From a virus, in IMG/VR virus record IMGVR_UViG_3300020159_002019, positions 45,291-109,290 of that record: a stretch of 64,000 nt of DNA. The stretch is one strand, 5' to 3'. Below are positions 32,717-59,035 of this stretch, piece after piece. The translations under genes were made by a program, and so were the position numbers. Below the pieces are notes generated by a model that worked only from the letters and a program-made list of their open reading frames with translations, searched no databases and had not been told where the DNA came from. Numbering within the stretch: the first letter of the stretch is position 1; each line of letters opens with the position of its first letter.

Positions 32717-32722
32717 AAATAG

Positions 32723-32799: not shown

Positions 32800-32810
32800 C
32801 AAAAATAAAT

Positions 32811-32884: not shown

Positions 32885-32891
32885 CAAAAAT

Positions 32892-32964
32892 GGGTTTATA
32901 GTGAAATTGGTGATCACGCATCCCTGATAAGGATGTATTATAGGTTCAAATCCTATTAGACCTA
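32892..32964 (+). tRNA. tRNA-Ile (GAT)
   Basis: Acceptor GGGTTTA/TAGACCT; anticodon loop CTGATAA on CATCC/GGATG; T-loop TTCAAAT. CCA not encoded. Confidence 0.9.
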
Positions 32965-32970
32965 CAATAT

Positions 32971-33043
32971 GGTGCAGTGGCAGATAAGGTTATTGCGGCG
33001 GACTGAAAATCCGTAGGAGTCGGATCGTTACCGACCTGCACCA
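32971..33043 (+). tRNA. tRNA-Phe (GAA)
   Basis: Acceptor GGTGCAG/CTGCACC; anticodon loop CTGAAAA; T-stem GTCGG/CCGAC with unusual T-loop ATCGTTA. CCA not encoded. Confidence 0.88.
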
Positions 33044-33052
33044 CAATAATAT

Positions 33053-33126
33053 ACTACCATAGCTCAATTGGTGAGAGCAGGATGCTTATACCATCAAGGT
33101 TGTCGGTTCAAATCCGGTTGGTAGTA
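33053..33126 (+). tRNA. tRNA-Ile (TAT)
   Basis: Acceptor ACTACCA/TGGTAGT; anticodon loop CTTATAC, giving UAU for the AUA codon that is frequent in AT-rich genes. One mismatch at the top of the anticodon stem. CCA not encoded. Confidence 0.82.
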
Positions 33127-33130
33127 CAAA

Positions 33131-33203
33131 TGGGATAAAAGCACATAAGGATGTGCAGACCCTAAACAGGGTAAGGATTGGGTTCGAATCCCAGATATTC
33201 CAC
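33131..33203 (+). tRNA. tRNA-like gene with unclear anticodon loop
   Basis: Acceptor TGGGATA/TATTCCA, a D-stem GCAC/GTGC and a good T-arm (TGGG/CCCA, loop TTCGAAT) are present. The anticodon region ACCC-TAAACA-GGGT gives a 6-nt loop, so no standard anticodon can be read. Possibly a decayed tRNA or one that has lost a base. Confidence 0.55.
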
Positions 33204-33220
33204 AAAAAAATTAAAAAAAG

Positions 33221-33251
33221 TTTGGAAATAATAAAAAAAGGAGTATCTTTG
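33221..33251 (+). promoter_or_regulatory. Bacteroidota-type promoter giving near-leaderless transcript
   Basis: TTTG at 33221 and TATCTTTG at 33244-33251, spacing 19. The ATG of the KWC gene lies only 4 nt after the -7 box, so the mRNA should start at or next to the start codon. Confidence 0.8.
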
Positions 33252-33255
33252 TAGT

Positions 33256-34113
33256 ATGGCAAAAATAGAAACATTAAAAGCAAAATTCCCTAATATAACC
33301 GAACAAACATTTATTCGTTTATTTGAGGGTGACAAGACATCTACTAAAAAGTATGCTGAATTTTTACTTTCCGCTTGGAATAGAAAAGGGACAAATTATG
33401 GTGGTTTAAGGGGTGTTGATGACTATATTAAATTGGTTGAGAATTTTGAGAAATTAACCCCTTATATTGATAATAAGGATATATACTCTTATGGAGATAT
33501 TCAATCAATAGTTGGTGTTGTTAAAATAGCTGAAGCCGAAAAAAATGAAAAATCTTTTGATAAAGATGAACACATTTCAGTTATTGAAGAAACTGAAGAT
33601 TATATCTTTTTGATACCTAAAACACACGTTGGTTCATTAAAATATGGTTCTAATACTAAATGGTGCACAGCGGCATCAACAAGTCCTGGAACTTTTAAAT
33701 CATATATTGATAGAGGTTTTTTAGCTTATTTAGTTGATAAGAAAAATAAAAAGACGAATAATCAAAATAAATTGGCTTTTTATTTTACAAATAAAGAAAA
33801 CTTACTTACACAAGTAATCCAAATCTTTAATCAATTAGATTCACTTGTAAATGAAAACCAAGTAATACAGAGTGGTTGGGATATTATGTTATTGAGTAAT
33901 CTTATAACTAAATTGAGGGTTTTCTTATTTGAGTTTAAGGAGAAAGAAAAAGTTAGGGTTGAAGTATCTAAAACAATTCAACAATTGAATCAAATCAATT
34001 ACGATAACTTCTTTAATGCTTTAAATACGTTAAAGATAAATCCTGAGAATGTTGAAGAATTGAAAAACGCTTTAGGGTTAGTTAAAACTTCAATGAAAAA
34101 AATCAAAGTATGA
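33256..34113 (+). CDS. KWC-motif protein 1
   Basis: 285 residues, no recognised family. An N-terminal helical part (1-110) is followed by a core: a strand with EETEDYIFLIP (about 112-122), then LKYGSNTKWCTAA with Lys-Trp-Cys at 135-137, then FLAYLVDKK. The same core occurs in the proteins at 41490 and 57857 and in altered form at 44159. After the core this copy lacks the WD strand seen in 41490 and 57857 and continues with helices. First gene of a three-gene operon transcribed from a host-type promoter inside the tRNA region, so it is probably expressed early. Confidence 0.7.
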   Translation: MAKIETLKAKFPNITEQTFIRLFEGDKTSTKKYAEFLLSAWNRKGTNYGGLRGVDDYIKLVENFEKLTPYIDNKDIYSYGDIQSIVGVVKIAEAEKNEKSFDKDEHISVIEETEDYIFLIPKTHVGSLKYGSNTKWCTAASTSPGTFKSYIDRGFLAYLVDKKNKKTNNQNKLAFYFTNKENLLTQVIQIFNQLDSLVNENQVIQSGWDIMLLSNLITKLRVFLFEFKEKEKVRVEVSKTIQQLNQINYDNFFNALNTLKINPENVEELKNALGLVKTSMKKIKV

Positions 34114-34460
34114 GGAGTGTAAAACAAATCAAAAAGTTAAGATATACTAATGATTGGGTGTCAAATGTTGATGATTCAAATATAACTTATCGTCTTTTTA
34201 CTTATAATGGTTTAACTTGGAATGTTATTTTAACTAACCGACAAGAATTAGGTGGTTGGACAATAAGGTTATGTAATAATGATGGTGATGAATTATACAT
34301 TTTTAATTCAGGTGTGAATAGAATGTCCATATCAATAAATGACGATTTAATTTACGAATTAGATGGTTGGTATTATGAAAATATAACTGAATTGAAGAAT
34401 AGGTTAGAAAACGATTTAATCGTATTATTAAGGAAATATGAGGAGTATATCAAAAATTAG
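34110..34460 (+). CDS. Small beta-rich protein, operon partner of KWC protein 1
   Basis: 116 residues starting MRSVKQIKKL, rich in Trp, Tyr and strands, with two Cys-free beta sheets predicted and a C-terminal helix. It overlaps the KWC gene by 4 nt (ATGA) and the next gene by 23 nt. No family recognised. Confidence 0.6.
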   Translation: MRSVKQIKKLRYTNDWVSNVDDSNITYRLFTYNGLTWNVILTNRQELGGWTIRLCNNDGDELYIFNSGVNRMSISINDDLIYELDGWYYENITELKNRLENDLIVLLRKYEEYIKN

Positions 34461-34770
34461 GGTAAGTGTAAAACAAGATTTTCAAGAATGGTTGGAAAAA
34501 ACTACCATTAGTAGATGGATGCCAAGACATAGAATAATATGTAATGATGGGTTTTCTATGTCAGTTCAGGGTGGTGAGTTTACATATTCAAACCCAAGAC
34601 AATTTGGTAGTAGTTTTACTGAAATGGAGATTGGGTTTCCTTCTGAGTATGAAGAATTGATTAGTAGTTATTCTGACTCTAATGAATATACTCAAACTGT
34701 TTATCCATATGTCCCAGTAAGTTTAATTATTGAAGTGATTGAAAAACACGGAGGAATAAAAAAAGATTAG
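34438..34770 (+). CDS. Small hypothetical protein, third gene of KWC operon
   Basis: 110 residues starting MRSISKIRVSVK, with the same ATGAGGAGT start context as the upstream gene. Contains RWMPRHRIICNDGFSMSV and an acidic C-terminal part. No motif recognised. Confidence 0.55.
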   Translation: MRSISKIRVSVKQDFQEWLEKTTISRWMPRHRIICNDGFSMSVQGGEFTYSNPRQFGSSFTEMEIGFPSEYEELISSYSDSNEYTQTVYPYVPVSLIIEVIEKHGGIKKD

Positions 34771-34787
34771 AAAAAAATAAAAAAAGA

Positions 34788-34818
34788 TTTGACAAGTTAA
34801 AAAAAAATGTTATCTTTG
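34788..34818 (+). promoter_or_regulatory. Bacteroidota-type promoter with conserved leader
   Basis: TTTGAC at 34788 and TATCTTTG at 34811-34818, spacing 19. The ~70 nt that follow (AAATGGGATATG, then GATTTCC, then ACAAAAACAAAAAAACAAAC) are closely matched after the promoter at 40016. Confidence 0.8.
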
Positions 34819-34897
34819 TATAACAAATGGGATATGAAAATATTTTTTAGATTTCCTTGACAAAAACAAAAAAACAAACTATTTATAAATTAAAGAT

Positions 34898-35008
34898 ATG
34901 AAAAACACGAATAAAAATATGACTATGGTTGTGAAAGCAACGGCAAAAGGTGGGAATAGAAATACCACACTTGGTTTAGGGCGTGTTATGTCTTTAATGG
35001 ATAGATAA
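34898..35008 (+). CDS. Possible 36-residue basic peptide
   Basis: ATG at 34898 opens MKNTNKNMTMVVKATAKGG, ending MSLMDR. It lies between a strong promoter and a terminator with no other content, in the same arrangement as the frame at 40122. A real short peptide or the spacer of a small RNA are both possible. Confidence 0.45.
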   Translation: MKNTNKNMTMVVKATAKGGNRNTTLGLGRVMSLMDR

Positions 35009-35032
35009 TACAATAATATAAAAAGATATATT

Positions 35033-35069
35033 AAAAACCCTGAACCATAAAAAAGTTCAGGGTTTTTTT
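35033..35069 (+). terminator. Rho-independent terminator
   Basis: AACCCTGAAC pairs with GTTCAGGGTT and is followed by seven Ts. It closes the 34898 unit. Confidence 0.9.
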
Positions 35070-35077
35070 ATTTATAA

Positions 35078-35149
35078 TCCAGATTAGTTTAATTGGGAAA
35101 ACACGTCTCTTGTAAAGATGAAAAGTTGGTTCGAATCCGACATTTGGAT
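35078..35149 (+). tRNA. tRNA-Thr (TGT)
   Basis: Acceptor TCCAGAT/ATTTGGA, D-stem GTTT/AAAC, anticodon loop CTTGTAA on CGTCT/AGATG, T-stem GTTGG/CCGAC. CCA not encoded. Confidence 0.85.
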
Positions 35150-35199
35150 CAAAGAAAATAGTAAAAAATTAATTAAAAATATGAAACGAAAACAGTAGG

Positions 35200-35232
35200 G
35201 TGTATGATCAATTAGGAATAGGTTGCATACAC
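35200..35232 (+). other. Short hairpin between tRNA genes
   Basis: GTGTATG pairs with CATACAC around a 19-nt loop. It lies in the 106-nt gap between tRNA-Thr and tRNA-Lys, which otherwise holds only a 5-codon ATG frame. Confidence 0.4.
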
Positions 35233-35255
35233 TAAAAATTAAAAAAAATGTATAT

Positions 35256-35343
35256 GCACCTATGGCTTAATTGGTAGAGCAACCGGCTTTTAACCGGTGG
35301 GGTAGACGAAAGTCCGTTGAAGGTTCGAGTCCTTCTGGGTGCA
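35256..35343 (+). tRNA. tRNA-Lys (TTT) with long variable arm
   Basis: Acceptor GCACCTA/TGGGTGC, anticodon loop CTTTTAA on ACCGG/CCGGT, T-stem GAAGG/CCTTC. About 20 nt lie between anticodon and T stems, forming an arm capped by GAAA (GAC-GAAA-GTC). Lysine tRNAs normally have a 4-5 nt variable loop. Confidence 0.85.
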
Positions 35344-35349
35344 CAATTT

Positions 35350-35422
35350 ACTTTCGTAGCTTAATTGGTAAAGAAACTAACTCTTAATTAGTGTGATGTG
35401 AGTTCGAGTCTCACTGGAAGTA
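35350..35422 (+). tRNA. tRNA-Lys (CTT)
   Basis: Acceptor ACTTTCG/TGGAAGT, anticodon loop CTCTTAA on ACTAA/TTAGT, T-stem GTGAG/CTCAC. CCA not encoded. Confidence 0.88.
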
Positions 35423-35449
35423 CTAAATGTTATTTGAAATATTATAAAT

Positions 35450-35522
35450 TGGGATGTAACTCAGAGGCTAGAGTGTTTGCCTGTTAAGCAAAAAGTCGAG
35501 ATATCGTAATTCTCCATCCCAG
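35450..35522 (+). tRNA. tRNA-Asn (GTT)
   Basis: Acceptor TGGGATG/CATCCCA, D-stem ACTC/GAGT, anticodon loop CTGTTAA on TTTGC/GCAAA, discriminator G. T-loop atypical (ATCGTAA). Confidence 0.88.
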
Positions 35523-35583
35523 CAAAAATTGAAAGATAAACGTATGAAACAAAGGAATGTAGTGGTTTATTAAGTAAATATAT

Positions 35584-35655
35584 GGCTCTATCGTTTAACG
35601 CATAAGACATTTCTCTTCTAAAGAAAGAATAGGGGTTGGATTCCCTTTAGAGCCA
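35584..35655 (+). tRNA. tRNA-Arg (TCT)
   Basis: Acceptor GGCTCTA/TAGAGCC, anticodon loop CTTCTAA on TTTCT/AGAAA, T-stem AGGGG/CCCTT with loop TTGGATT instead of TTCRANN. CCA not encoded. Confidence 0.85.
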
Positions 35656-35687
35656 CAGCAATCCAAGTTCGATTCTTGGTGGGAGTA
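35656..35687 (+). pseudogene. 3' half of a tRNA gene
   Basis: Directly after tRNA-Arg, CCAAG-TTCGATT-CTTGG forms a T-arm followed by TGGGAGT and A73. No matching 5' half (ACTCCCA) precedes it, because the region upstream belongs to tRNA-Arg. A remnant of recombination within the array. Confidence 0.7.
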
Positions 35688-35696
35688 CAAAAAAAT

Positions 35697-35767
35697 ACCT
35701 TCTTAGTTAAATGGGAGAATATCTGTTTTACATACAGAAGATAACTGTTCGATTCAGTTAGGGGGTA
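35697..35767 (+). tRNA. tRNA-Val (TAC)
   Basis: Acceptor ACCTTCT/AGGGGGT, anticodon loop TTTACAT on TCTGT/ACAGA, T-stem AACTG/CAGTT. CCA not encoded. Confidence 0.85.
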
Positions 35768-35777
35768 CAAAAAAAGA

Positions 35778-35808
35778 TTTGATTTTTTAAAAAAAATTAT
35801 TATCTTTA
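35778..35808 (+). promoter_or_regulatory. Bacteroidota-type promoter (weaker -7 box)
   Basis: TTTG at 35778 and TATCTTTA at 35801-35808, spacing 19, just before tRNA-Ala. Confidence 0.6.
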
Positions 35809-35819
35809 AAAAACAATAT

Positions 35820-35892
35820 GGGGTTATGGTATAGTTGGCGAACACAGTAGCTTTGCAAGCTTCAGTCCCGAGTTCAAATCTCGGTAGCTCCA
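35820..35892 (+). tRNA. tRNA-Ala (TGC)
   Basis: Acceptor GGGGTTA/TAGCTCC, anticodon loop TTTGCAA, T-stem CCGAG/CTCGG. One mismatch in the anticodon stem. CCA not encoded. Confidence 0.85.
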
Positions 35893-35895
35893 CAA

Positions 35896-35965
35896 TGTTT
35901 CACTTAGAATAAAAACAAACGCTTAATAGCAACAAACTCTTAATTTGTCAATTATTAGTGAAACA
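35896..35965 (+). ncRNA. Structured element A (terminal stem TGTTTCACT/AGTGAAACA)
   Basis: A perfect 9-bp terminal stem encloses 52 nt with an inner hairpin ACAAA-CTCTTAA-TTTGT shaped like a Lys(CTT) anticodon arm. There is no T-arm. It shares its first part (TTTCACTTAGAATAAAAA) and last part (CAATTATTAGTGAAA) with element B at 36051, and the second pair of the terminal stem covaries (G-C here, A-T there). Confidence 0.6.
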
Positions 35966-35968
35966 AAT

Positions 35969-36039
35969 GTCGATATAGTTAAATGGGATAACACCCCTCT
36001 CATCAAGGGAAGTTATTGGTTCGAATCCAGTTATCGATA
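35969..36039 (+). tRNA. tRNA-Met (CAT), elongator-type
   Basis: Acceptor GTCGATA/TATCGAT, D-stem GTTA/TAAC, anticodon loop CTCATCA. It lacks the initiator mismatch. It could alternatively be the Ile2 tRNA that is modified to read AUA. Position 37 is C, which is unusual. Confidence 0.8.
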
Positions 36040-36050
36040 CCCTGAAATAA

Positions 36051-36127
36051 TATTTCACTTAGAATAAAAAACTATTTGAATTTATCCTCCAATGGAGGGT
36101 GTATTTAATCCAATTAATAGTGAAATA
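36051..36127 (+). ncRNA. Structured element B (terminal stem TATTTCACT/AGTGAAATA)
   Basis: The same architecture as element A: a 9-bp terminal stem, the same conserved ends, and an unrelated middle containing the hairpin ATCCT-CCAATGG-AGGGT. It lies between tRNA-Met and tRNA-Gly. No T-arm. Confidence 0.6.
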
Positions 36128-36130
36128 AAT

Positions 36131-36203
36131 GCGGGTGTAGCTCAATTGGTAGAGCGCGACCTTGCCAAGGTCGAGGCTGTGGGATCGTACCCCATCACCC
36201 GCT
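36131..36203 (+). tRNA. tRNA-Gly (GCC)
   Basis: Acceptor GCGGGTG/CACCCGC, anticodon loop TTGCCAA on CGACC/GGTCG, T-stem GTGGG/CCCAT with T-loop ATCGTAC. CCA not encoded. Confidence 0.9.
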
Positions 36204-36419
36204 CATTGAGTAAGAGGTACTCAGTAGTCTTTAATCCAAGACTCATTTAACAATGGATTCGCTTAAATCGGACAGCGAAAATGCCGGTTCTTAGGAATAA
36301 GGAGCGAAGCACACCTCCCCTTCGTAGTGTGACTATTTTTAATGGGGATGCCCTTCAGGTTTTTGGAAAGAAGAAAACCGAAATGACTACTCACCTAAAT
36401 CTCAAGGTGGGGTAAACAA
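36204..36419 (+). ncRNA. Candidate ~215-nt structured RNA between two glycine tRNAs
   Basis: No coding frame fits. Visible pairings: CATTG/CAATG enclosing two hairpins (GAGTA/TACTC and AGTCTT/AAGACT); TTCGCT/AGCGAA; CTTA-GGAA-TAAG, with a GNRA-type tetraloop; CACAC/GTGTG; GGTTTT/AAAACC; CACCT/AGGTG; and a long-range AGTAGTC/GACTACT. A possible CCCC/GGGG pseudoknot is also present. This density of stems in an AT-rich genome suggests a functional RNA. It is not a tRNA, and I see no tmRNA, RNase P or group I intron signature. Confidence 0.55.
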
Positions 36420-36491
36420 GCGAGTATCGTATAATGGCTATTATACCACGCTTCCAACGTGGGGATGTGATTTCGATTATCACTACTCGCT
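36420..36491 (+). tRNA. tRNA-Gly (TCC)
   Basis: Acceptor GCGAGTA/TACTCGC, anticodon loop CTTCCAA on CCACG/CGTGG, T-stem GTGAT/ATCAC. CCA not fully encoded (TCCG). Confidence 0.9.
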
Positions 36492-36504
36492 CCGGACGTT
36501 TTAG

Positions 36505-36542
36505 AAATCAGTAATATTTTTTTGGTATTACTGATTTTTTTT
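36505..36542 (+). terminator. Rho-independent terminator overlapping a promoter
   Basis: AAATCAGTAATA pairs with TATTACTGATTT and is followed by Ts. The loop contains the TTTG of the next promoter. Confidence 0.85.
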
Positions 36543-36552
36543 ATTACCTTTG
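36521..36552 (+). promoter_or_regulatory. Bacteroidota-type promoter of the YqeY gene
   Basis: TTTG at 36521 (inside the terminator loop) and TACCTTTG at 36545-36552, spacing 20, placed 17 nt before the ATG at 36569. Confidence 0.75.
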
Positions 36553-36568
36553 TAGAAATAATAAAATT

Positions 36569-37018
36569 ATGACACTTAAAGAACAAATTCAAAAAGACTT
36601 CATCACGGCTATGAAAAATAAAGATGAATGGACTAAATCCGCTCTAAGTGGGTTAAAATCAAAGATTACTGAAGCTGAAAAAGTTAATGGAACAGAATTA
36701 TCAGACGCTGATATTCTTAAACTAATTAATAAAGGTATTAAACAAAGGGAAGAATCTGCTACTATATATAGTGAAGCAGGTCGTCCGGAATTAGCTGCGA
36801 AAGAATTACTTGAACTTAATGTTTTAATGGATTATATGCCAGCTCAAATGACTGATGAGGAAATTGAAACGGCTGTAAGGGAAATTATTGTTGGATTACC
36901 TACAATGACAAACGCAAATGCCTTGTCAGGAAAAACTATGGGTGAATTCAATAAAAAGTATCAAGGAATGGCTGATTCTAAAAGAGTTTCAGAAATTATA
37001 AAAAAAGTTGTATCATAA
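36569..37018 (+). CDS. yqeY: YqeY (GatB/YqeY domain) protein
   Basis: 149 residues. It matches the family over its whole length: SALSGLKSKITEAEK, then GIKQREES, ELLELNVLMDYMP and the C-terminal GKTMGEFNKKY/SKRVSEIIKK part. The domain resembles the tRNA-binding tail of GatB amidotransferase; YqeY itself has no settled biochemical role. A tRNA-binding domain protein encoded between two phage tRNA arrays suggests a job in tRNA handling, which is inference. Confidence 0.88.
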   Translation: MTLKEQIQKDFITAMKNKDEWTKSALSGLKSKITEAEKVNGTELSDADILKLINKGIKQREESATIYSEAGRPELAAKELLELNVLMDYMPAQMTDEEIETAVREIIVGLPTMTNANALSGKTMGEFNKKYQGMADSKRVSEIIKKVVS

Positions 37019-37062
37019 TTTGACTTTCAATAAACAATAAACTATAATTAAAAAACAAAAAT

Positions 37063-37173
37063 GGGGGGTAATTTTTTAGTGGATTGAAAATACCACTTAG
37101 AATAACTCTAAACTATATTGGTAAAAGTTTGACTAATAATCAAATATAGAAGGTTCGAACCCTTCACCCCCCG
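37063..37173 (+). tRNA. Oversized tRNA-like gene (111 nt) with expanded central region
   Basis: Acceptor GGGGGGT/ACCCCCC, D-arm-like TTTT/AAAA and T-arm GAAGG-TTCGAAC-CCTTC are present. A stem TACCA/TGGTA in the anticodon position encloses 23 nt instead of 7, including a TTAGA/TCTAA hairpin. A long variable arm (TTTGA-CTAATAA-TCAAA) follows. It contains CACTTAGAATAA, which is also in elements A and B. If an insertion were removed, a 7-nt loop CTTAGAA (Leu TAG) could form; discriminator G would fit Ser better. Confidence 0.55.
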
Positions 37174-37203
37174 CAATTATTAACAATATAAAACATAAAG
37201 TAT

Positions 37204-39042
37204 ATGACAGAATTAGTAAAAGAAAAAATGAAGTTATCTAACACATTAGATACATTACAATTTTTAAGAACCGCTAAAGGTGCTTCAGATGAAAAAATTC
37301 ATTTGGCTTTAGATAAAGCCTATGCTGAAACAACATCTAATGGAGTTGAGGAAATGTTATATAGAATTATGTTTCATATTGGAGATATTTCAAGAAAGCA
37401 TAATATCTTTAAAGAATTTGAAATCAACTCAGAAGTGGGTGGGGCTCAAGAAAGAAAGATATTTAGATCTTGTGTAAGATGGATGCAAAAGAACACCCCA
37501 GAGTTCTTGCATAACAACTTAAAGTTAGTAGTTGAATATACTTCATACGAAACTTTAATGTATTACCAAGTAAGCACAAACAGATATTTGGGTAATGTTA
37601 TGGGTGTTGAAAAACTATTCATTGACAACCAATATTTGTTCCCTTTCTTAAAGTCTGAGATTGAATCAGGTGTAAACTTGAACTTAATCGCAAGACACTT
37701 ACCTAAATATGCTACAGGTAAGCAAAGAACAACTAAAAAGACTTTAGTTGGTAAAAGGGGAAGAACTGAATTCAGTTGGACATTACCGAAAGGTAAGACT
37801 TGGGTTAAAATCAATGGAAACCTTGTAAATGGTGATAAAATCACGGTTAAGCATGGTGATGTTGCTGAATACCCAAGAGAAAAGAAATCTGAGTCTTTAA
37901 CAAGACAAAGTTTCTTAAACAAGTGGATTAAGGATTTCTGTGATTATATGAAATGGACAATCGCTGATTACAAAGCATTTAAGGGTAAGCAGAATACTGC
38001 TGAACAAAAAATGTCAAGTGGTTCAGTAATGTCTATGACAGAAGATCAATTTAATGGTTTCTTGGATTCTTTGACTGCGGGACAAAGAAAAAGGGTTGTA
38101 AAATCATTGGGTAATCCTAAATGGGGACAGCTAACTAAATGGTATAAGGCTTGGGAAGATGACCAATCTAACTTAGCTGAAAAAATTAGAAAAGCTACCA
38201 CACCTGCTGAAAAAGCCGCTTTGATGAAAGATTTCAAAGTTAAAACAACAGGGGATCAAACAATTGATTTGTTGGCTGAAATGCTTGGTAAGGGTTTAAA
38301 TGCTCAACAAGTAAATAACAACTATCAATCAATGATTGAGAGAATGAACATTAAACATTCAGTATTTCCAATTATTGACGGTTCGGGTTCTATGGATAGT
38401 ACTTTTGACCATAACGGTGTAGGAATATCTAACAGACAAGTAGCATACGCAATGGCAATTGCATTTACTACAATGAATCCAAACCCAAGATTTAGAAATA
38501 CTTATGGTTGGTTCTCAAACGACTTTAAGGTTTTTGGTAGGTCTGAGTATGGTGATACCTATATATCTATGTTTAAGAATGTGGATAAGTATGTAAGTCA
38601 TACAAAGACTTTTACTGAGAATTACAGATTACTTATGGAGACAGATCCAAAAGAAATTACATCTACAAATATGTTTGCTTCGGTAGAATATTTTGTAAAT
38701 CTTGTGAAAACAGGAAGATGTACTATGGAAGAATTACCTGAAACATTACTTTATCTTACAGATAATGAGTATAATTCAGGTAAATCACCAAAAGAAGCGG
38801 TTACTTTAGCCAATTCAATTGGATGGAGACCAAAGTTAATTTTTTGGGGTATTACCACAATGACTCATTCTATTAAGGAAGAGTTAAAATATACTCCGAA
38901 TGGTTTATTCATCGGTGGTTTCAACGAAAGTTGTTTATCACAAATCTTGGATGGAATCTCAAAAGATTCAATAAATCCAGAAGATGAATTGTGGGCTATT
39001 TATAACGATATTCGTTATAGTGTAATTAAAGTAGGTGAATAA
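37204..39042 (+). CDS. vWA-domain protein (DUF2828/TROVE-like architecture)
   Basis: 612 residues. An N-terminal helical domain (1-~330) is followed by a von Willebrand A domain with a complete MIDAS DGSGS (Asp392, Ser394, Ser396), a TSTNM segment near 500 and LLYLTDNEYN near 525. Helical repeats before a vWA domain are seen in DUF2828 and in Ro60/TROVE RNA-binding proteins. Bacterial Ro proteins bind Y RNAs with tRNA-like parts, so a position between tRNA arrays is suggestive. I cannot tell which family it belongs to. Confidence 0.75.
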   Translation: MTELVKEKMKLSNTLDTLQFLRTAKGASDEKIHLALDKAYAETTSNGVEEMLYRIMFHIGDISRKHNIFKEFEINSEVGGAQERKIFRSCVRWMQKNTPEFLHNNLKLVVEYTSYETLMYYQVSTNRYLGNVMGVEKLFIDNQYLFPFLKSEIESGVNLNLIARHLPKYATGKQRTTKKTLVGKRGRTEFSWTLPKGKTWVKINGNLVNGDKITVKHGDVAEYPREKKSESLTRQSFLNKWIKDFCDYMKWTIADYKAFKGKQNTAEQKMSSGSVMSMTEDQFNGFLDSLTAGQRKRVVKSLGNPKWGQLTKWYKAWEDDQSNLAEKIRKATTPAEKAALMKDFKVKTTGDQTIDLLAEMLGKGLNAQQVNNNYQSMIERMNIKHSVFPIIDGSGSMDSTFDHNGVGISNRQVAYAMAIAFTTMNPNPRFRNTYGWFSNDFKVFGRSEYGDTYISMFKNVDKYVSHTKTFTENYRLLMETDPKEITSTNMFASVEYFVNLVKTGRCTMEELPETLLYLTDNEYNSGKSPKEAVTLANSIGWRPKLIFWGITTMTHSIKEELKYTPNGLFIGGFNESCLSQILDGISKDSINPEDELWAIYNDIRYSVIKVGE

Positions 39043-39054
39043 CCTACTTTTTTT
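39028..39054 (+). terminator. Terminator overlapping the stop codon of the vWA gene
   Basis: AAAGTAGGT pairs with ACCTACTTT and is followed by Ts. The TAA stop lies in the loop. It may work for the convergent minus-strand gene as well. Confidence 0.8.
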
Positions 39055-39271
39055 ATGCCTTTATTTTAACCACAACCTCACCTTCATTATTAGTGGTTAG
39101 ATAATATTCTTTTTTGTTTGTAAATCCATATTTTTTAGATATGTTTGATTCTATCCTTTTTTTGGTTGATGGTGTGTTAGCAAATGTAATATGTGGTTGA
39201 ACATATTCATCTTTGAATTGTTCCATTTTATTTACCGTTTCTTTAATAATTCTCTTAATTAAATTTTTCAT
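39053..39271 (-). CDS. Small leader-bearing protein
   Basis: 72 residues starting MKNLIKRIIKETVNKMEQF, a basic amphipathic leader like those of the late proteins. The rest has PHITFANTPSTKKRIESN and a short beta C-terminus. Two overlapping ATAAATA motifs (TATTTAT on the coding strand) precede the start. Function unknown. Confidence 0.6.
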   Translation of the reverse strand: MKNLIKRIIKETVNKMEQFKDEYVQPHITFANTPSTKKRIESNISKKYGFTNKKEYYLTTNNEGEVVVKIKA

Positions 39272-39282
39272 ATAAATAAATA

Positions 39283-39314
39283 TTTGGTTTTATGAAAACT
39301 ATTATTTATATTTG
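39283..39314 (+). promoter_or_regulatory. Bacteroidota-type promoter of clpP
   Basis: TTTG at 39283-39286 and TATATTTG at 39307-39314, spacing 20, 24 nt before the ATG. Confidence 0.7.
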
Positions 39315-39338
39315 TATTGTAATTAAAAAATAAAATAT

Positions 39339-40004
39339 ATGTATAATAACAAAACAGATTTTAACAAATTCGCAACATCGCATATGGGTATATCGTCTTT
39401 ATACCTCGATGATCTTCAATCGTCAATGACACCTCACATCTTAGAAGAAAGACCGACAAGAGCAAATCTTATGTCAGTATTTGATAGATTGATGCAAGAT
39501 AGGATTATTTGGGTTGCCGGTGCGGTTGATGAGGGTATGTCACAAGTTATTCAAGCGCAATTGATTTACTTGTCAAACTCAGACCCTAAGAAAGAAATTA
39601 CGATGCACATTGACACTCCTGGTGGTTCAGTAAAGGCTGGATTATCAATCGTGGATGTAATGGATTATGTTAAACCTGACATTAGAACAATCAATACAGG
39701 TATGGCGGCATCAATGGGTTCAGTATTGTTAGGCGCTGGAACCAAAGGAAAAAGAATGTCTTTAAGATTTTCACAAACAATGCTACACCAATCTTCAGGT
39801 GGTGTGAGAGGAAATATTCAGGATGCTAGGATAACAATGATTGAATGGGAAAAAATAAATGATTTGTTATTTAATTTGTTAGGTGGGTATTGTGGTAAGG
39901 ATGCTATCCAAGTAAAAGAAGATGCTTCTCGTGATTTATGGTTAAGTTCTGAAGAAGCGTTGGCTTATGGGATAATTGACGAAATAATCAAACCAAAAAA
40001 ATAA
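39339..40004 (+). CDS. clpP: ClpP-like serine protease
   Basis: 221 residues. The catalytic triad context is complete: GMAASMGS with Ser125, TMLHQSSGG with His150, and SRDLWLS with the Asp. The N-terminus is ~20 residues longer than typical ClpP. Phage ClpP homologues can act in capsid maturation or host-protein turnover. No ClpX or ClpA ATPase is visible nearby, and this one is not next to capsid genes here. Confidence 0.9.
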   Translation: MYNNKTDFNKFATSHMGISSLYLDDLQSSMTPHILEERPTRANLMSVFDRLMQDRIIWVAGAVDEGMSQVIQAQLIYLSNSDPKKEITMHIDTPGGSVKAGLSIVDVMDYVKPDIRTINTGMAASMGSVLLGAGTKGKRMSLRFSQTMLHQSSGGVRGNIQDARITMIEWEKINDLLFNLLGGYCGKDAIQVKEDASRDLWLSSEEALAYGIIDEIIKPKK

Positions 40005-40015
40005 TTAAAAAAAAG

Positions 40016-40046
40016 TTTGACAATTAGAAAAAAAATATTATCTTTG
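40016..40046 (+). promoter_or_regulatory. Bacteroidota-type promoter with conserved leader (second copy)
   Basis: TTTGAC at 40016 and TATCTTTG at 40039-40046, spacing 19. It is followed by GGGATGTGAAAAATATTTTTCACATTTCC, a near-perfect hairpin, and the AACAAAAACAAAAAAACAAAC tract seen after the 34788 promoter. Confidence 0.8.
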
Positions 40047-40121
40047 TATTATAAATGGGATGTGAAAAATATTTTTCACATTTCCATAACAAAAACAAAA
40101 AAACAAACTATTTAATATAAA

Positions 40122-40256
40122 ATGAAAACATTAATTAACATATCATTATCGTCATTGTATCTATTACAGTCGCTATGCCAAAGTTGTGTTTCGGTATTAC
40201 CGTTACATCAGTATTGGTTAGTGCTAGGATTTAGTGCGGTGGGTATGTTAAGTTGA
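40122..40256 (+). CDS. Possible 44-residue hydrophobic peptide
   Basis: ATG at 40122 opens MKTLINISLSSLYLLQSLC and ends WLVLGFSAVGMLS, with two hydrophobic stretches compatible with a small membrane peptide. It lies between the conserved leader and a terminator, directly upstream of tRNA array 3. Confidence 0.5.
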   Translation: MKTLINISLSSLYLLQSLCQSCVSVLPLHQYWLVLGFSAVGMLS

Positions 40257-40278
40257 TAAGACAATAATATACCTTATT

Positions 40279-40320
40279 AAACCCCCTAAATCCGTATAAA
40301 TGAGATTTAGGGGGTTTTTT
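40279..40320 (+). terminator. Rho-independent terminator
   Basis: AAACCCCCTAAATC pairs with GATTTAGGGGGTTT and runs into Ts. Confidence 0.9.
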
Positions 40321-40354
40321 ATTTTAGTTATTTGACATATTGTATTAGAAATAT

Positions 40355-40427
40355 CAGGGTGTATATCAATTGGGAGATTACTCCATTTGGATTGGAGAGG
40401 TTGTAGGTTCGAGTCCTATCACCCTGA
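40355..40427 (+). tRNA. tRNA-Pro (TGG)
   Basis: Acceptor CAGGGTG/CACCCTG, anticodon loop TTTGGAT on CTCCA/TGGAG, T-loop TTCGAGT. CCA not encoded. Confidence 0.9.
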
Positions 40428-40434
40428 CAAATAT

Positions 40435-40505
40435 TCCCCTTTCGTCTAACGGCAGGACAGATGGTTTTGAGCTATCGAATCGAGGTTCGAATCCTTGAGG
40501 GGGAA
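40435..40505 (+). tRNA. tRNA-Gln (TTG)
   Basis: Acceptor TCCCCTT/AGGGGGA, D-stem GTCT/GGAC, anticodon loop TTTTGAG on GATGG/CTATC. CCA not encoded (ACCG). Confidence 0.87.
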
Positions 40506-40516
40506 CCGGTTTGGGT

Positions 40517-40555
40517 TTTACACTTTTAAACTTACGAGATAAGGAAAAAGTGAAA
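40517..40555 (+). other. Hairpin between tRNA-Gln and tRNA-Tyr
   Basis: TTT-a-CACTTTT pairs with AAAAGTG-AAA, with an inner CTTA-CGAGA-TAAG hairpin. No tRNA features. Confidence 0.4.
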
Positions 40556-40557
40556 TT

Positions 40558-40628
40558 GGGATGATGCCGAGAGTGGTCAGACGGTCTGTAAAACCGAACT
40601 GCATAGTGTTTGAGTCACTTCCATCCCA
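40558..40628 (+). tRNA. tRNA-Tyr (GTA) without long variable arm
   Basis: Acceptor GGGATGA/CCATCCC with a mismatch at the seventh pair, anticodon loop CTGTAAA on ACGGT/ACCGA, short variable region. Bacterial Tyr tRNAs normally have a long variable arm. Confidence 0.8.
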
Positions 40629-40638
40629 CAAAATAAAC

Positions 40639-40712
40639 GTAAGTGTAGTGAACAATGGCTAACACGTTCGGTTCCAACCCGAAAGATGTGGGTTCGACCC
40701 CTACCACTTGCG
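40639..40712 (+). tRNA. tRNA-Trp (CCA)
   Basis: Acceptor GTAAGTG/CACTTGC, anticodon loop TTCCAAC on TTCGG/CCGAA, discriminator G as expected for Trp. Confidence 0.88.
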
Positions 40713-40719
40713 CAAATAA

Positions 40720-40814
40720 GGAGAGGTGCTAGAGATGGATTATTGGGCTAGTCTTGAAAACTAGAGATCGTCAGTGATGGGGATCCGTGGGTTCGAATCC
40801 CACTCTCTCCTCCA
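40720..40814 (+). tRNA. tRNA-Ser (TGA)
   Basis: Acceptor GGAGAGG/TCTCTCC, anticodon loop CTTGAAA on CTAGT/ACTAG, long variable arm, T-stem GTGGG/CCCAC. CCA is encoded after T73. Confidence 0.9.
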
Positions 40815-40819
40815 AATAT

Positions 40820-40896
40820 GGGTTTGTTGGTGTTAATTGGATGAGCATTTACGATTGTGGCTCGTAAGGTGAGGGGTTCGAATCCCCCATAAACCC
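40820..40896 (+). tRNA. tRNA-His (GTG)
   Basis: The extra G at -1 opposite C73 is encoded, as required for His. Acceptor GGTTTGT/ATAAACC, anticodon loop TTGTGGC on TACGA/TCGTA. Confidence 0.9.
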
Positions 40897-40901
40897 CAAA
40901 A

Positions 40902-40962
40902 GTAAGGAATTAGGTTATTATACGTAGGCTCCGAGTGTAATAACTGAAATTTAGATCCTTAT
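40902..40962 (+). other. Hairpin between tRNA-His and tRNA-Ser
   Basis: TAAGGA pairs with TCCTTA outside and GGTTATTA with TAATAACT inside (8 bp), around a GC-richer apical loop (GTAGGCTCCGAG). No tRNA T-arm. Confidence 0.4.
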
Positions 40963-40978
40963 GAACTTCGGTCCGCAG

Positions 40979-41066
40979 GGAGAATTGACAGAGTGGTAAT
41001 GTATCGGTTTGCTAATCCGTAGTCTATGTAAAAGTAGCGGGGGCTCGAATCCCTCATTCTCCGCCA
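40979..41066 (+). tRNA. tRNA-Ser (GCT)
   Basis: Acceptor GGAGAAT/ATTCTCC, anticodon loop TTGCTAA on an imperfect stem, long variable arm, discriminator G and encoded CCA. Confidence 0.83.
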
Positions 41067-41075
41067 AAAATAAAT

Positions 41076-41164
41076 GCTTCTGTGGCGAAATTGGTAGCAC
41101 GCGATGGACTTAAAATCCATTGGGAAATAACAGTACCGTGTCGGTTCGATTCCGACCAGAAGTA
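41076..41164 (+). tRNA. tRNA-Leu (TAA)
   Basis: Acceptor GCTTCTG/CAGAAGT, anticodon loop CTTAAAA on ATGGA/TCCAT, long variable arm, T-stem GTCGG/CCGAC. Confidence 0.9.
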
Positions 41165-41171
41165 CAAACAT

Positions 41172-41257
41172 ACCCCAATGTTGGAATGTAGACAACCTAG
41201 TTTTAGAAACTAGTGTGAAGTAATAGTAGCGTCTGGGTTCAAATCCCAGTTGGGGTA
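41172..41257 (+). tRNA. tRNA-Leu (TAG)
   Basis: Acceptor ACCCCAA/TTGGGGT, anticodon loop TTTAGAA on CTAGT/ACTAG, long variable region. Confidence 0.9.
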
Positions 41258-41263
41258 CAAAAT

Positions 41264-41351
41264 GGGAATGTGGTGTGAGTGGTTGAAACCGGGGGTCTGC
41301 AAAACCCCAAAAACGAAAGTTTTCACGTCAGTTCGAATCTGATCATTCCCT
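41264..41351 (+). tRNA. tRNA-Cys (GCA) with long variable arm
   Basis: Acceptor GGGAATG/CATTCCC, anticodon loop CTGCAAA on GGGGT/ACCCC, discriminator T (U73 is a Cys identity element). The variable region forms AAAAC-GAAA-GTTTT, making this a class II tRNA, which is unusual for Cys. Confidence 0.85.
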
Positions 41352-41360
41352 CAATTACAT

Positions 41361-41433
41361 GACCCCATAGTTCAATGGATTAGAATACTTGAATACGGAT
41401 CAGGAGATGAGAGTTCAAATCTTTCTGGGGTTA
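41361..41433 (+). tRNA. tRNA-Arg (ACG)
   Basis: Acceptor GACCCCA/TGGGGTT, anticodon loop ATACGGA on CTTGA/TCAGG, T-stem GAGAG/CTTTC. ACG needs adenosine-to-inosine editing at position 34. Confidence 0.85.
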
Positions 41434-41440
41434 CAAAAAG

Positions 41441-41489: not shown

Positions 41490-44162
41490 ATGATTATTAT
41501 TGAAGGAAAATTAGAAGATTTATCTAAGAAATATATACCGAAGTTTAATAGGGATTCATTTACTGAAGGTTTAACCCCTGAATCTGTTATTGAGCATTTA
41601 TATGTTTCAGATCCATCACCAACAAAGAAATACTTTGAGTGGATGATTAAAGAATGTTTGGGATTGATAGAACGTAATTATGTTATTAACAATGAAAAAA
41701 TAGCTAAACTTGTAACGGATATCCAAGAATTTGATAGAAATATTGATAAACTTAGTCAGGATTTTTTAGATTATAATAAAGAAGAAATTGGTGAAATTGC
41801 GTATAAGTTTTTAAATGGTAAGGCTTTAAAAGATATTGGTACATATAATTACGATATTTTAAGAAAAATAATACCTTCATTGGTAGAATATAAGACAGAA
41901 AGTCAAAGAAGAAGATTGGCTAAAGAAGGTGCTAAAATTATATTTCAAGATGAAAAATATGATGTTTATGAAATAGATACTTATGACGCTTCTTGTTTTT
42001 ATGGTCAAGGTTCTAAATGGTGTACAACTTATAAACAAAGTGATTCACATTTTAAATCATATGGTACTGGTAGGAATAAATTATTATATGTTATTAGTAA
42101 AACTAAGACAAAAGAAACTGATCCTCAATTTTATAAGATTGCTATAAATATAAGGTATGTTGATGAACAAATAACATTTTGGGATGCTCCTGATAATAGT
42201 TTTAATGGTTGGAAATATTTTAGGGAACAAGATCCAAATATTTTAACTTTTTTGATTTCTTATATTAAAGAAAAGAATCCTGAAGGATATCTTAAAATGA
42301 TACCTGAAAACTATTTAATAACGATTAAACAAGAAGAAGAAGGTTTAAGTGATTTAAATATTATTTCGGTTTTAGATGTTGATAAATCTAGTGATTGGTT
42401 AAGTCATAAATATGGGTTAAATGGTGTGGATACTATTATTAAAAAATTGGATATATTACAAGGTAATGTCAGTAATTTTTTAGGTGATTATTTTACCAGT
42501 GATGAAAAAGAGTATTTAATCATAAAAAGAAGTGAGAAATTAGAACCAAGAGGTTTGTCGTGGAAAGATTTAGTTAAAAGTTATCACCAATTAGCAATTA
42601 CTCTAGATAGCTATCAACCAAGTTGGTTTATTGATAATTTTTTAGGTGGGGATAAAAACAAAGCGTTAGAAATTGGGACAAAAGAACCGATAGTACTATA
42701 TTGGTTGGCTAGAGGTAGTGTTAATATAAAGGATTTGGGTGATTTATATGGAGCTGAAAAACTTGTTAAATATATTACTAAAAGTAAAGTTAAAGTTATT
42801 TTTGGGTTAAGTGATATATTGGGTGGTTTATTTACAAATGAAACTCCAAAGAAAAGAAAGGAGTTATATGAAATTGCTTATAAGTATGATGGCAAAAAAA
42901 GGAATATTGAATTAGTCGATTATTTGTCTAGACGTATGGGTAAAGAGGGATTCATTGCGTCATTTAATAAAGGTGATGGATATGGAATTGAACCTGATTC
43001 ATATGGAAGAGCATTTTTATATGTTAAAAATAATAACCCTGATTTAATAAGTAATGTATTTAACATTGAGGATATTAGTAAAATCTTCAAGTCAAACGAA
43101 AAAGCGTTTACTTATTTATTAAAAAATTATGATGAATTTACACGTAATTTAGATATTAGTGATTTAACTGAAATGTTTAGTGGTGATGTTCCTGATAGTA
43201 TATATGGTAAATATATGAGTGATTGGGAAAAGAGGAATGTTGCGTCAATATATAGAATGAAAAATGGTTCTGAAAAACTATTTGATTTTGTTCTTAAAAA
43301 GTTTTCTTTTAAAAAGTTAGCCGATATCATCGGATATGATGGAGTATTTCAATTATTTTCTATTGTTAAGTTTAAAAAAGGTATAAACTATATGATTGAA
43401 AATAAGGTTGGCGATATCGCTATTGATGATATAAAAATAAAAGATGGTAAGGTGGTATTGGTTGTTAATGATAGAACGGATTATGCGTTTTTATTTGATG
43501 ATGAAGATTTGGCTAAAACTATATTGGGTGAAGATATGGATTGGGAACCGTATAACGATACTATTTATAATTGGTATGATCAAGTATGGGATTGTATGGT
43601 ACCAAAATCAATTGAACTGGTTAAGTCTTGGATTAAAAGTAATATAACAGATTATGAGAATGATGAAGGTGAAAAAATTGATTTAGGTGATACATATTTA
43701 AATGAAATAGATGATGATGATTTGGGTAAAATAATAGATGAGTACGATGAATTTAGGGATTTAAAAAATGAGATGAGTTGGGCTTATGATAATGGTTATA
43801 ATTCTGTTGCTCAAAGTGATATTATTAGTAAAACACAAGATCAATTAGAAGAATATTTAGGTAGTTATATAGGGTATGAACCAGTTAAAAAGAATGGTCG
43901 TAGATATAATAAAGAAACAGGTAATTCTGAATCATACGAATATACAGCATATGAATACTTATATAATGTGGGTGATGGTTTATATGATATATTATATGAT
44001 TATGCAACTACTAATTGGGGTCATTCGGTTGATTACAACACATATTTTAGCACTTTATTAAAGGATTCTGACCCTAAAAAGTTATATATTGATACTGAGG
44101 CTTATCCAGACGATAAAGAAATTTGTGAGTATTTTAATGATGATTTACCGGAAAGAATATGA
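41490..44162 (+). CDS. Large KWC-motif protein 2
   Basis: 890 residues, no recognised family. After a helical N-terminus, the KWC core spans about 150-250: a strand EKYDVYEID, then FYGQGSKWCTTY with Lys-Trp-Cys at 176-178, then LLYVISK, then FYKIAINI and ITFWDAPD. The rest (about 260-890) is a long Asp/Glu/Lys-rich helical region reminiscent of repeat proteins. It begins 23 nt after the tRNA array terminator with a TATTTAT start signal, and overlaps the next KWC-like gene by 4 nt. Confidence 0.7.
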   Translation: MIIIEGKLEDLSKKYIPKFNRDSFTEGLTPESVIEHLYVSDPSPTKKYFEWMIKECLGLIERNYVINNEKIAKLVTDIQEFDRNIDKLSQDFLDYNKEEIGEIAYKFLNGKALKDIGTYNYDILRKIIPSLVEYKTESQRRRLAKEGAKIIFQDEKYDVYEIDTYDASCFYGQGSKWCTTYKQSDSHFKSYGTGRNKLLYVISKTKTKETDPQFYKIAINIRYVDEQITFWDAPDNSFNGWKYFREQDPNILTFLISYIKEKNPEGYLKMIPENYLITIKQEEEGLSDLNIISVLDVDKSSDWLSHKYGLNGVDTIIKKLDILQGNVSNFLGDYFTSDEKEYLIIKRSEKLEPRGLSWKDLVKSYHQLAITLDSYQPSWFIDNFLGGDKNKALEIGTKEPIVLYWLARGSVNIKDLGDLYGAEKLVKYITKSKVKVIFGLSDILGGLFTNETPKKRKELYEIAYKYDGKKRNIELVDYLSRRMGKEGFIASFNKGDGYGIEPDSYGRAFLYVKNNNPDLISNVFNIEDISKIFKSNEKAFTYLLKNYDEFTRNLDISDLTEMFSGDVPDSIYGKYMSDWEKRNVASIYRMKNGSEKLFDFVLKKFSFKKLADIIGYDGVFQLFSIVKFKKGINYMIENKVGDIAIDDIKIKDGKVVLVVNDRTDYAFLFDDEDLAKTILGEDMDWEPYNDTIYNWYDQVWDCMVPKSIELVKSWIKSNITDYENDEGEKIDLGDTYLNEIDDDDLGKIIDEYDEFRDLKNEMSWAYDNGYNSVAQSDIISKTQDQLEEYLGSYIGYEPVKKNGRRYNKETGNSESYEYTAYEYLYNVGDGLYDILYDYATTNWGHSVDYNTYFSTLLKDSDPKKLYIDTEAYPDDKEICEYFNDDLPERI

Positions 44163-44944
44163 AAGAACTAATAAGAAAAATATTAAGGGAAGAGGTTGGG
44201 ATGAAATCCACCGATAAAGAATTTGATGAGATTAAGGATTCTTGGTTTTATAGATTAAGAAATTATACATTGGGAGATATTGTAGATAATTGGGATTCGT
44301 TAAAAAATAACGAAAATGATAACATACAAACAATAAAATATTTTGTTGAAAATCCTGATAAGATAACTGACTTAATTTATGATGAAAAAGGTTTGGAAGA
44401 TGGATATCACAGATTGACCGCTGCTAAAATATTGGGGATACCAAAATTTAAATATATAAAGGGAGAAACCATAACTGAAAGTCGTGTTAAGAAGAGTGAT
44501 AGGATTGATATTTATAGGGATGAGAACATAGTGGTTGTCGCCCCTTTAACCCACGAAGCATTACAAAAATACGCGAGTGAATGTGCTTGGTGTATAAATC
44601 GCGATAAATACGAATGGACACATTACCATCAAGGTAAGATTGCTGTTATAATACAAAGAAAACCTAAAAAAAATAAAATAGGTAAAACAGAACAAGAAAC
44701 TTCGGAGGAGATTTATGACTTTACCCATAATGGGACGAGAAATCAAGAAGAAGATCATTATTTTGATGACCTAATTAGTAGTATGAGTAATTTTGATACC
44801 AACATTGTTTATTATAACCCCAGTGAAAGTATTATCTATGATAAAGGTGATAATTGTATGAGTGATTTTGGTTATTCTATCTATGATATTCCATATATAA
44901 CTGAAGAAATTATAAAGAAAATAAAATCAACTTTAATGAATTAG
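44159..44944 (+). CDS. ParB-like motif plus degenerate KWC-motif protein
   Basis: 261 residues. It begins with a short leader (MKELIRKILREE). Residues about 60-100 contain EDGYHRLTAAKILG (Asp81-Arg85), the phosphate-binding motif of the ParB/sulfiredoxin fold. Residues about 120-180 resemble the KWC core, with Ala143-Trp144-Cys145 in place of KWC and a following KIAVIIQRK strand. Coupled by ATGA overlap to the 890-residue KWC protein. Its stop overlaps the convergent gene's stop. Confidence 0.65.
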   Translation: MKELIRKILREEVGMKSTDKEFDEIKDSWFYRLRNYTLGDIVDNWDSLKNNENDNIQTIKYFVENPDKITDLIYDEKGLEDGYHRLTAAKILGIPKFKYIKGETITESRVKKSDRIDIYRDENIVVVAPLTHEALQKYASECAWCINRDKYEWTHYHQGKIAVIIQRKPKKNKIGKTEQETSEEIYDFTHNGTRNQEEDHYFDDLISSMSNFDTNIVYYNPSESIIYDKGDNCMSDFGYSIYDIPYITEEIIKKIKSTLMN

Positions 44945-57856: not shown

Positions 57857-59035
57857 ATGGATATACTTTCTTTACAAATCGACTCAAAATACAAAAAATG
57901 GTTAAAAAATCTTTATGATGGTAGTGGCTTACACCCTTCATTCGTTTTTATGTGTAATAAACATAAACGATTGAGTGATAATATACCTATTGAATATCGT
58001 GATATTTTTAACTTTAAATCCGTAGATGATTTCATATCATATGTGGATAGTTTAGAATCTGAAACAGAAAAAGAAGAAACTATTAAAAATAGTGGATCTA
58101 CAACAATTTATGAAAATGAAGATTTTTTAGTGAAAAGAATTCATAATTTGGATGCTATGAAATTATATGGTAAGGGAAGTAAATGGTGTATTGCTTCTGA
58201 CGATATTAATATTTGGGATAAATATGAGAAGTATGGTGATATTTTCTTCTTGGTGTTTTCTAAAAAATTACCATACACAAGCCAATTTAATAAGTTTGTC
58301 GTTCAATTAAACAATCAAAAATATTTAACGATTTGGGATAGAACGGATTGTGCTTATGGGTCCAACATATTTGATTTAATTAATTTAGATGGTGAGATAT
58401 TCCGAAATCATTATAATTTAGAGATAGTGTCAAAACTAATACATTATATTTCAGATATTAATGTGTTAGATGTATTAGTTAATAATAACGCAATAATAGC
58501 GGGTGGTGCTCTAACATCTATTATATTGAATGAAAGAATAAATGATTTTGATATATGGTTTTCAAATGAAAACGACTACAAACAAGCTATTATTAATATG
58601 AATGTTTTATATATGACAAAGAAAAACCAATCTAATGATAATGTTTTTGAGTATATTAGTCATAGTAAATATACGACTACCAACGCTATAACATATACTA
58701 TTGATAATAAAAAATATCAATTCATTAGTCCATCCAGATATACTTTTGGTAATGTTGATACAATAATCAATCAATTTGATTTCACTTGTGTTATGTGTGG
58801 TGTGGATGTAAAAAATAAAAAATTAATACATAATGATAAGTTTTTTAGTGATGCTAAATCTAAAAAATTAATCATAAATAAAGGGTTAAAATCACCAGCT
58901 TCTTTATTGGATAGGATTGTTAAATACACCAAAAAAGGATATAGGGTTTCTAAAGAATCACAAAGAGATGCTCTAAGATTATTATCTAAAGTGACTGAAC
59001 AGGAAATAAATGACGTGACACTAACAATGTATTAA
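57857..59035 (+). CDS. KWC-motif protein fused to a CCA-adding-like nucleotidyltransferase
   Basis: 392 residues from the ATG at 57857. The N-terminal half has the KWC core: NEDFLVKRIH near 90, LYGKGSKWCIAS with Lys-Trp-Cys at 109-111, FFLVFSKK near 130 and FVVQLNNQ/LTIWDRTD near 145-160. The C-terminal half has AGGALTSIILNERINDFDIWF (Gly216-Gly217, Asp230-x-Asp232), the polymerase-beta nucleotidyltransferase motif in the arrangement of CCA-adding enzymes and poly(A) polymerases, then FDFTCVMCGV near 310. A tRNA 3'-end or antitoxin-like role is inferred, not shown. Its stop abuts the gp6 stop. Confidence 0.7.
   Translation: MDILSLQIDSKYKKWLKNLYDGSGLHPSFVFMCNKHKRLSDNIPIEYRDIFNFKSVDDFISYVDSLESETEKEETIKNSGSTTIYENEDFLVKRIHNLDAMKLYGKGSKWCIASDDINIWDKYEKYGDIFFLVFSKKLPYTSQFNKFVVQLNNQKYLTIWDRTDCAYGSNIFDLINLDGEIFRNHYNLEIVSKLIHYISDINVLDVLVNNNAIIAGGALTSIILNERINDFDIWFSNENDYKQAIINMNVLYMTKKNQSNDNVFEYISHSKYTTTNAITYTIDNKKYQFISPSRYTFGNVDTIINQFDFTCVMCGVDVKNKKLIHNDKFFSDAKSKKLIINKGLKSPASLLDRIVKYTKKGYRVSKESQRDALRLLSKVTEQEINDVTLTMY

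Follow-up and report, generated by a model that had tools for sequence, protein, structure and literature searches.

Class II CCA-adding enzymes and bacterial poly(A) polymerases (PF01743) combine a head fold, with GG, DxD and DFT motifs, with VRD, RRD and EDxxR motifs and body and tail domains. The EDxxR motif of class II enzymes selects C and A, and the body and tail domains of CCA-adding enzymes read and grip the tRNA. For jumbo phages, Iyer et al. have proposed that CCA-adding enzymes restore the CCA (PMC7824862). Gad2 (WIT27925.1) of the Bacillus phages SPbetaL6 and SPbetaL7 is listed as an inhibitor of Gabija, with its mechanism reported as unknown (PMC12904381). Phage proteins of PHROG 17056 and 28193 carry a KWC domain; a literature search on KWC and PcfJ returned nothing relevant, and we did not find the role of KWC described.

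Here we describe a phage protein, KWC-NTase, in which a KWC domain is followed by a nucleotidyltransferase (NTase) domain related to that of Gad2. It is encoded in a stretch of 64,000 nt (the window) contained in a virus record of 109,290 bases. We think that the protein more likely attacks host immunity than finishes tRNAs, and give a probability of roughly 45% to a role in counter-defence (or host takeover) as a phage enzyme of the Gad2/PHROG 4400 NTase family, because its family, evolution and anatomy fit that reading best.

The KWC-NTase gene and its surroundings

The gene and its two domains are located in the window as follows:

57857..59035, + strand: KWC-NTase gene, ATG start at 57857, 392 aa; the same fusion is found in 22 other viral contigs
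57857..58411, + strand: N-terminal KWC domain, residues 1–185, delimited by conserved residues and an AlphaFold model (pLDDT 88.2)
58181..58189, + strand: KWC motif, residues 109–111; [KR]WC in 49 of 49 homologous ORFs, a count that is partly by construction, KWC being contained in one of the two search patterns
58412..59032, + strand: C-terminal NTase domain, residues 186–392 (207 aa), supported by PHROG 4400 (E = 2e-23), AlphaFold and Foldseek

The first-pass annotation had treated this ORF as a gene and had read its product as KWC fused to a nucleotidyltransferase-like C-terminal half, and both readings stand. Full-length relatives were found at the same locus in 22 further IMG/VR contigs (50–90% identity). 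The start codon is supported by relatives that open with MDIL at the same site, most of them with a stop 2–4 codons upstream. Within the protein, KWC occupies residues 109–111, GG residues 216–217, and the DxD aspartates residues 230 and 232. The gene order NrdJ (ribonucleotide reductase), in some cases DUF6011, KWC-NTase, baseplate J and gp25 was the same across the KWC-NTase contigs, as far as each extends. No relative of the fusion was detected in GTDB genomes.

The only isolate relatives of one gene of the virus record are in a Flavobacterium phage, and the host is likely a member of Bacteroidota, probably Flavobacterium-like. YqeY, taken as a host marker, yielded a single distant Firmicutes match. 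The other half of the record (L296–L298) is rich in sugar genes, encoding GDP-mannose dehydratase, UDP-galactopyranose mutase, aminotransferases and glycosyltransferases.

The nucleotidyltransferase domain and its relatives

Five motifs or residues of the NTase domain bear on its function:

58502..58507, + strand: GG motif, residues 216–217, conserved in 38 of 38 sequences
58544..58552, + strand: DxD, putative metal-binding motif, residues 230–232, conserved in 38 of 38
58718..58720, + strand: Q288, aligned by hhalign with the Glu of class II enzymes; Gln in 26 and Glu in 12 of the 38 family members
58775..58786, + strand: FDFT, residues 307–310, corresponding to RRDFT of CCA enzymes in profile alignments
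58895..58942, + strand: P-x-S-xxx-R-xx-KY-xxx-GY, residues 347–362, in the place of EDxxR of CCA enzymes; P347, R353 and Y357 in 38 of 38

The NTase domain was modelled with AlphaFold2 from an alignment of 38 sequences (pLDDT 91.7, pTM 0.86), separately from the KWC domain; a joint alignment of both domains was misaligned. In the model, the domain folds like the head of class II tRNA nucleotidyltransferases, and both aspartates of DxD are kept. Foldseek returned 36 PDB matches at E ≤ 1e-3, all to class II CCA-adding/poly(A)-type enzymes, the best being 4wby (E 1.5e-7, TM 0.56). GG, DxD and DFT also lined up in a profile–profile alignment (hhalign) of the NTase family with eight genuine class II enzymes (P = 87%, E = 4e-6). 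Family profiles were matched with E values from 2e-23 to 2e-15 (PHROG 4400 at 2e-23, 18122, 27100 and 1614 'nucleotidyltransferase'). When the PDB was searched by sequence, neither a single sequence nor a first profile produced a useful match, and a wider profile gave weak yet consistent CCA/poly(A) matches. Against PF01743 (PolyA_pol), the domain scored 13–15.6 bits, well below the curated cut-off of 23; most of the genuine PF01743 enzymes from 26 genomes scored 50–141 bits.

A GG...DxD motif in the arrangement of CCA-adding enzymes had been noted at first pass. This was confirmed for GG, DxD, DFT and the modelled head fold, but the remaining class II CCA motifs are absent. The VRD of motif A was not found (LTS in this protein, mostly xTS or xKN in the 38-sequence family), nor was the RRD of RRDFT (x[FY]D in 38/38). 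EDxxR was missing from the aligned columns of all 38 sequences, the sole EDFLR string sitting elsewhere. Body and tail tRNA-binding domains were not found in the protein, which ends shortly past the head and first neck helices, some 30 residues after the GY motif; the genuine class II enzymes recovered for comparison measure 441–482 aa, against 207 aa for this domain. The domain has the right fold, yet by these usual criteria it is not a CCA-adding enzyme. These absences make a CCA enzyme less likely and do not lower the likelihood that the protein transfers nucleotides.

The position of Q288 raises the question of a catalytically weak or dead NTase that would act as a sensor or sponge by binding a nucleotide or RNA. 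The stand-alone phage group of the family keeps the class II Glu; the KWC-NTase group and nearly all members of the Gad2 group have Gln there, and the KWC domain may be the part that does the work. We nevertheless hold an inactive enzyme to be distinctly unlikely, given that GG, DxD and [FY]D[FW] are each kept in 38/38 sequences and that the NTase part is under purifying selection (dN/dS 0.21–0.43).

Conserved active-site residues would also suit a toxin that modifies proteins or the acceptor ends of tRNAs with added nucleotides and so halts translation in the host, in the manner of MenT with a different fold; MenT shows that extending tRNA ends is toxic (PMC11541572). The first-pass annotation had named a MenT/MNT-type enzyme as its alternative, and the structural comparison argues against this, neither MenT nor MNT structures being among the 50 best matches listed. 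The adjoining genes encode ribonucleotide reductase, DUF6011 and baseplate proteins, and no antitoxin-like partner was found among them. We give the toxin little credence.

The relative that weighs most is Gad2. The NTase of the window protein matched Gad2 of SPbetaL6 over 174 aa with 32% identity (BLASTP, E = 2e-17), and both proteins matched PHROGs 18122, 27100, 16176, 4400 and 1614. They have in common GGAxTS, INDxDIxF, FDFT, R-xx-KY and the Gln in place of Glu. They differ in layout: in Gad2 the NTase is N-terminal and accompanied by about 230 other residues, whereas in the window protein it is C-terminal and follows KWC. No counterpart of the C-terminal region of Gad2 was found in the KWC-NTase protein. 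As a side observation, the NTase of Gad2 (L024:3914–5116) had a weak PADLOC match (3e-4) to the candidate defence protein PDC-S19, a hint that hosts may have related NTases.

Among isolate phages, the domain occurs in two other settings, as a stand-alone protein of about 210 aa and at the N-terminus of larger proteins. The larger proteins comprise Gad2 and proteins of Aeromonas, Serratia, Psychrobacillus and Klebsiella phages. Stand-alone NTases were found in Streptococcus thermophilus phages, in csAssE-Sib (annotated as polyA polymerase) and in Thomasclavelia phages (annotated as CCA tRNA nucleotidyltransferase). Those of PHROG 4400 (Streptococcus M19_032, csAssE-Sib and a Thomasclavelia phage) share the domain and its motifs with the window protein; they differ in lacking KWC, in having Glu at the position of Q288 and in often lying in recombination modules.

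The genes next to stand-alone NTases include those for SSB, RecT, ExoVIII, DnaD, RusA and DNA methylases, and the RecT/SSB/exonuclease/RusA modules could indicate an accessory factor of DNA recombination or replication with no role in defence. The KWC-NTase gene lies outside any such module, however, and in its predicted fold it resembles terminal NTases of the RNA type. Its dN/dS is also unlike that of the phage replication genes (DnaB, exonuclease and primase), which is low. A recombination or replication factor thus seems improbable to us.

The tRNA genes of the phage

32369..41434, + strand: 27 tRNA genes in clusters, three of them encoding CCA (ARAGORN, Rfam and stem-fitting)

ARAGORN called 27 tRNA genes in the window and Rfam 26. 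The first-pass annotation had counted three CCA-encoding genes in a total of 28; the three were exactly those named, Asp copy 1, Ser-TGA and Ser-GCT, and the total needed correction. For Ser-TGA, T73-CCA follows from the sequence and from the Rfam end at 40811. With Ser-TGA so corrected, CA directly follows the discriminator in 20 of the 27 genes (21/27 by the stem-fitting script), against a background of 0.048 per position for CA, which bears out the earlier statement that most of the tRNAs end in the discriminator followed by CA. This CA mostly reads CAA. The same N73-CA pattern was seen in the relatives G003 and G008, and tRNA arrays are present in both relatives whose contigs span the tRNA region. 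The lack of tRNAs in a 98-kb relative (G001), once taken as counter-evidence to a tRNA role, was dropped from consideration, as the G001 contig stops short of the tRNA region. A tRNA-like sequence at 33132–33203, after tRNA-Ile, ends in ...ATATTCCACAAAA and was called by neither ARAGORN nor Rfam.

The premise that the phage tRNAs mostly lack CCA is in itself ordinary. Bacteroidetes tRNA genes are mostly without an encoded CCA (PMC5143459), so such a host must add CCA itself and the phage need not. The proposal at first pass that the protein matures the phage's own tRNAs is therefore not supported: a host of that kind must already do so, the protein is without EDxxR, RRD, body and tail, a stand-alone homologue occurs in Streptococcus phage M19, which has zero tRNA genes, and the best-characterised relative is the anti-Gabija protein Gad2.

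The same points weigh on tRNA 3'-end repair, by which the protein would restore or extend phage or host tRNA ends damaged by host nucleases. The class II CCA-adding/poly(A) head fold of the model, the 27 tRNA genes with their mostly N73-CA ends, the tRNA arrays of both relatives covering the region and the CCA restoration proposed by Iyer et al. are all in keeping with repair. In the jumbo Serratia phage BF, moreover, genes for RNA ligase and polynucleotide kinase are found close to an NTase of the same family. These two functions were not among the 25 commonest Pfam families listed for each half of our record. Together with the missing CCA-enzyme parts, the M19 homologue and a Bacteroidetes-type host that must supply CCA addition, this leaves repair as a credible but less likely explanation, second to counter-defence.

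The KWC domain, allele exchange and counter-defence

The window protein contains the Y-G-x-x-x-[KR]-W-C signature with the flanking conserved K, Y and D by which we recognised KWC domains; Y104, G105, W110, C111 and D164 were invariant in 33 diverse KWC proteins. A single scan of viral contigs confirmed at least 325 homologues, in most of which KWC lies near the N-terminus and the remaining parts vary. KWC proteins of other phages (PHROG 17056/28193) have the same domain and differ from the window protein in its partners: LRV, HEAT repeats, ankyrin, LRR and ADP-ribosyltransferase take the place of the NTase. One KWC protein, EST35_0205 of phage PA5oct, carries an annotation as a structural protein seen by mass spectrometry. 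KWC looks like a large undescribed modular phage family. Paralogues were also found in the window:

33256..34113, + strand: KWC paralogue of 285 aa, directly beside a tRNA cluster
41490..44162, + strand: KWC paralogue of 890 aa, directly after the last tRNA; dN/dS 0.30–0.34, as high as that of KWC-NTase
44159..44944, + strand: possible degenerate KWC paralogue (AWC) of 261 aa, recognised by eye only and without a family match

The KWC model had no PDB match at E ≤ 0.001 and 22 matches at this threshold among viral structure models (BFVD). One of the viral models, named PcfJ-like, matches the KWC fold at 4e-4, with further PcfJ-like ones at 1.5e-3 and 1.5e-2. Homology to PcfJ was not supported by sequence, hhalign against two PcfJ proteins being not significant, and the likeness is one of fold only; PF14284 (PcfJ) was absent from a Pfam search of the window protein. 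The BFVD matches A0A481Z016, A0A481YZT2 and A0A481YW50 are Marseillevirus LCMAC201/202 proteins with a KWC-like fold, suggesting from the models that the domain may have reached giant viruses too.

The gene has exchanged alleles at a fixed place. Compared with contigs L037 and L038, dS was 0.86 for KWC-NTase and 0.04–0.16 for its neighbours DnaB, NrdJ, DUF6011, baseplate J and gp25, and nucleotide identity fell from 97–99% outside the gene to 68% inside it, returning to 95% just past the 3' end. This jump in dS and the sharp drop in identity within the gene indicate allele replacement. The dN/dS of KWC-NTase (0.17–0.34) was about 3–5 times that of most neighbours (0.03–0.10) yet below 1, and the gene is therefore functional and diversifying. 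Elsewhere in the window, the large protein encoded at 24538–29616 had 37% identity to its counterpart in G003 over the aligned part, against 88–96% for its neighbours; it probably serves in the tail or in adhesion and evolves fast.

The counter-defence reading draws together the modelled class II fold, the kinship with Gad2, the allele swap, the raised dN/dS, the varied KWC partners, the KWC protein annotated as a virion protein seen by mass spectrometry and the stand-alone relatives among RecT, ExoVIII, SSB, RusA and DNA methylase genes. Mechanistically, the DxD aspartates would bind Mg-NTP, and the NTase domain would transfer a nucleotide to a host target or otherwise use NTP on it. That target would probably be part of a defence system; we do not claim Gabija itself. 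KWC may serve as the variable recognition or delivery part, because other phages combine it with many different partners. A further proposal, which we hold to be unlikely, casts KWC as a modular domain for targeting, perhaps injected, that phages join to many different effectors and that here aims a minimal, non-CCA class II NTase at a component of host defence, with recognition and active parts recombining.

Several points speak against counter-defence. The link to Gad2 spans the NTase only, with about 230 residues of Gad2 missing; PADLOC gave no match for the KWC-NTase protein; and rapid evolution and allele swaps are also seen in non-defence genes. The gene sits between those for ribonucleotide reductase and the baseplate, in no obvious counter-defence island, and with Gln for the class II Glu in the window protein, catalysis is not certain. 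On balance, we rank counter-defence first and tRNA repair second; a dead enzyme or sponge comes next, then a factor in recombination, and last a toxin.

Were tRNA the substrate after all, this would be an enzyme of the CCA type that lacks the C- and A-selecting motif. For KWC, a domain found in hundreds of phage contigs and without a solved structural relative, the fusion brings function within reach. As the NTase is here separated from what else Gad2 contains, and likewise in phage proteins of about 210 aa, the role of the NTase alone can be asked.
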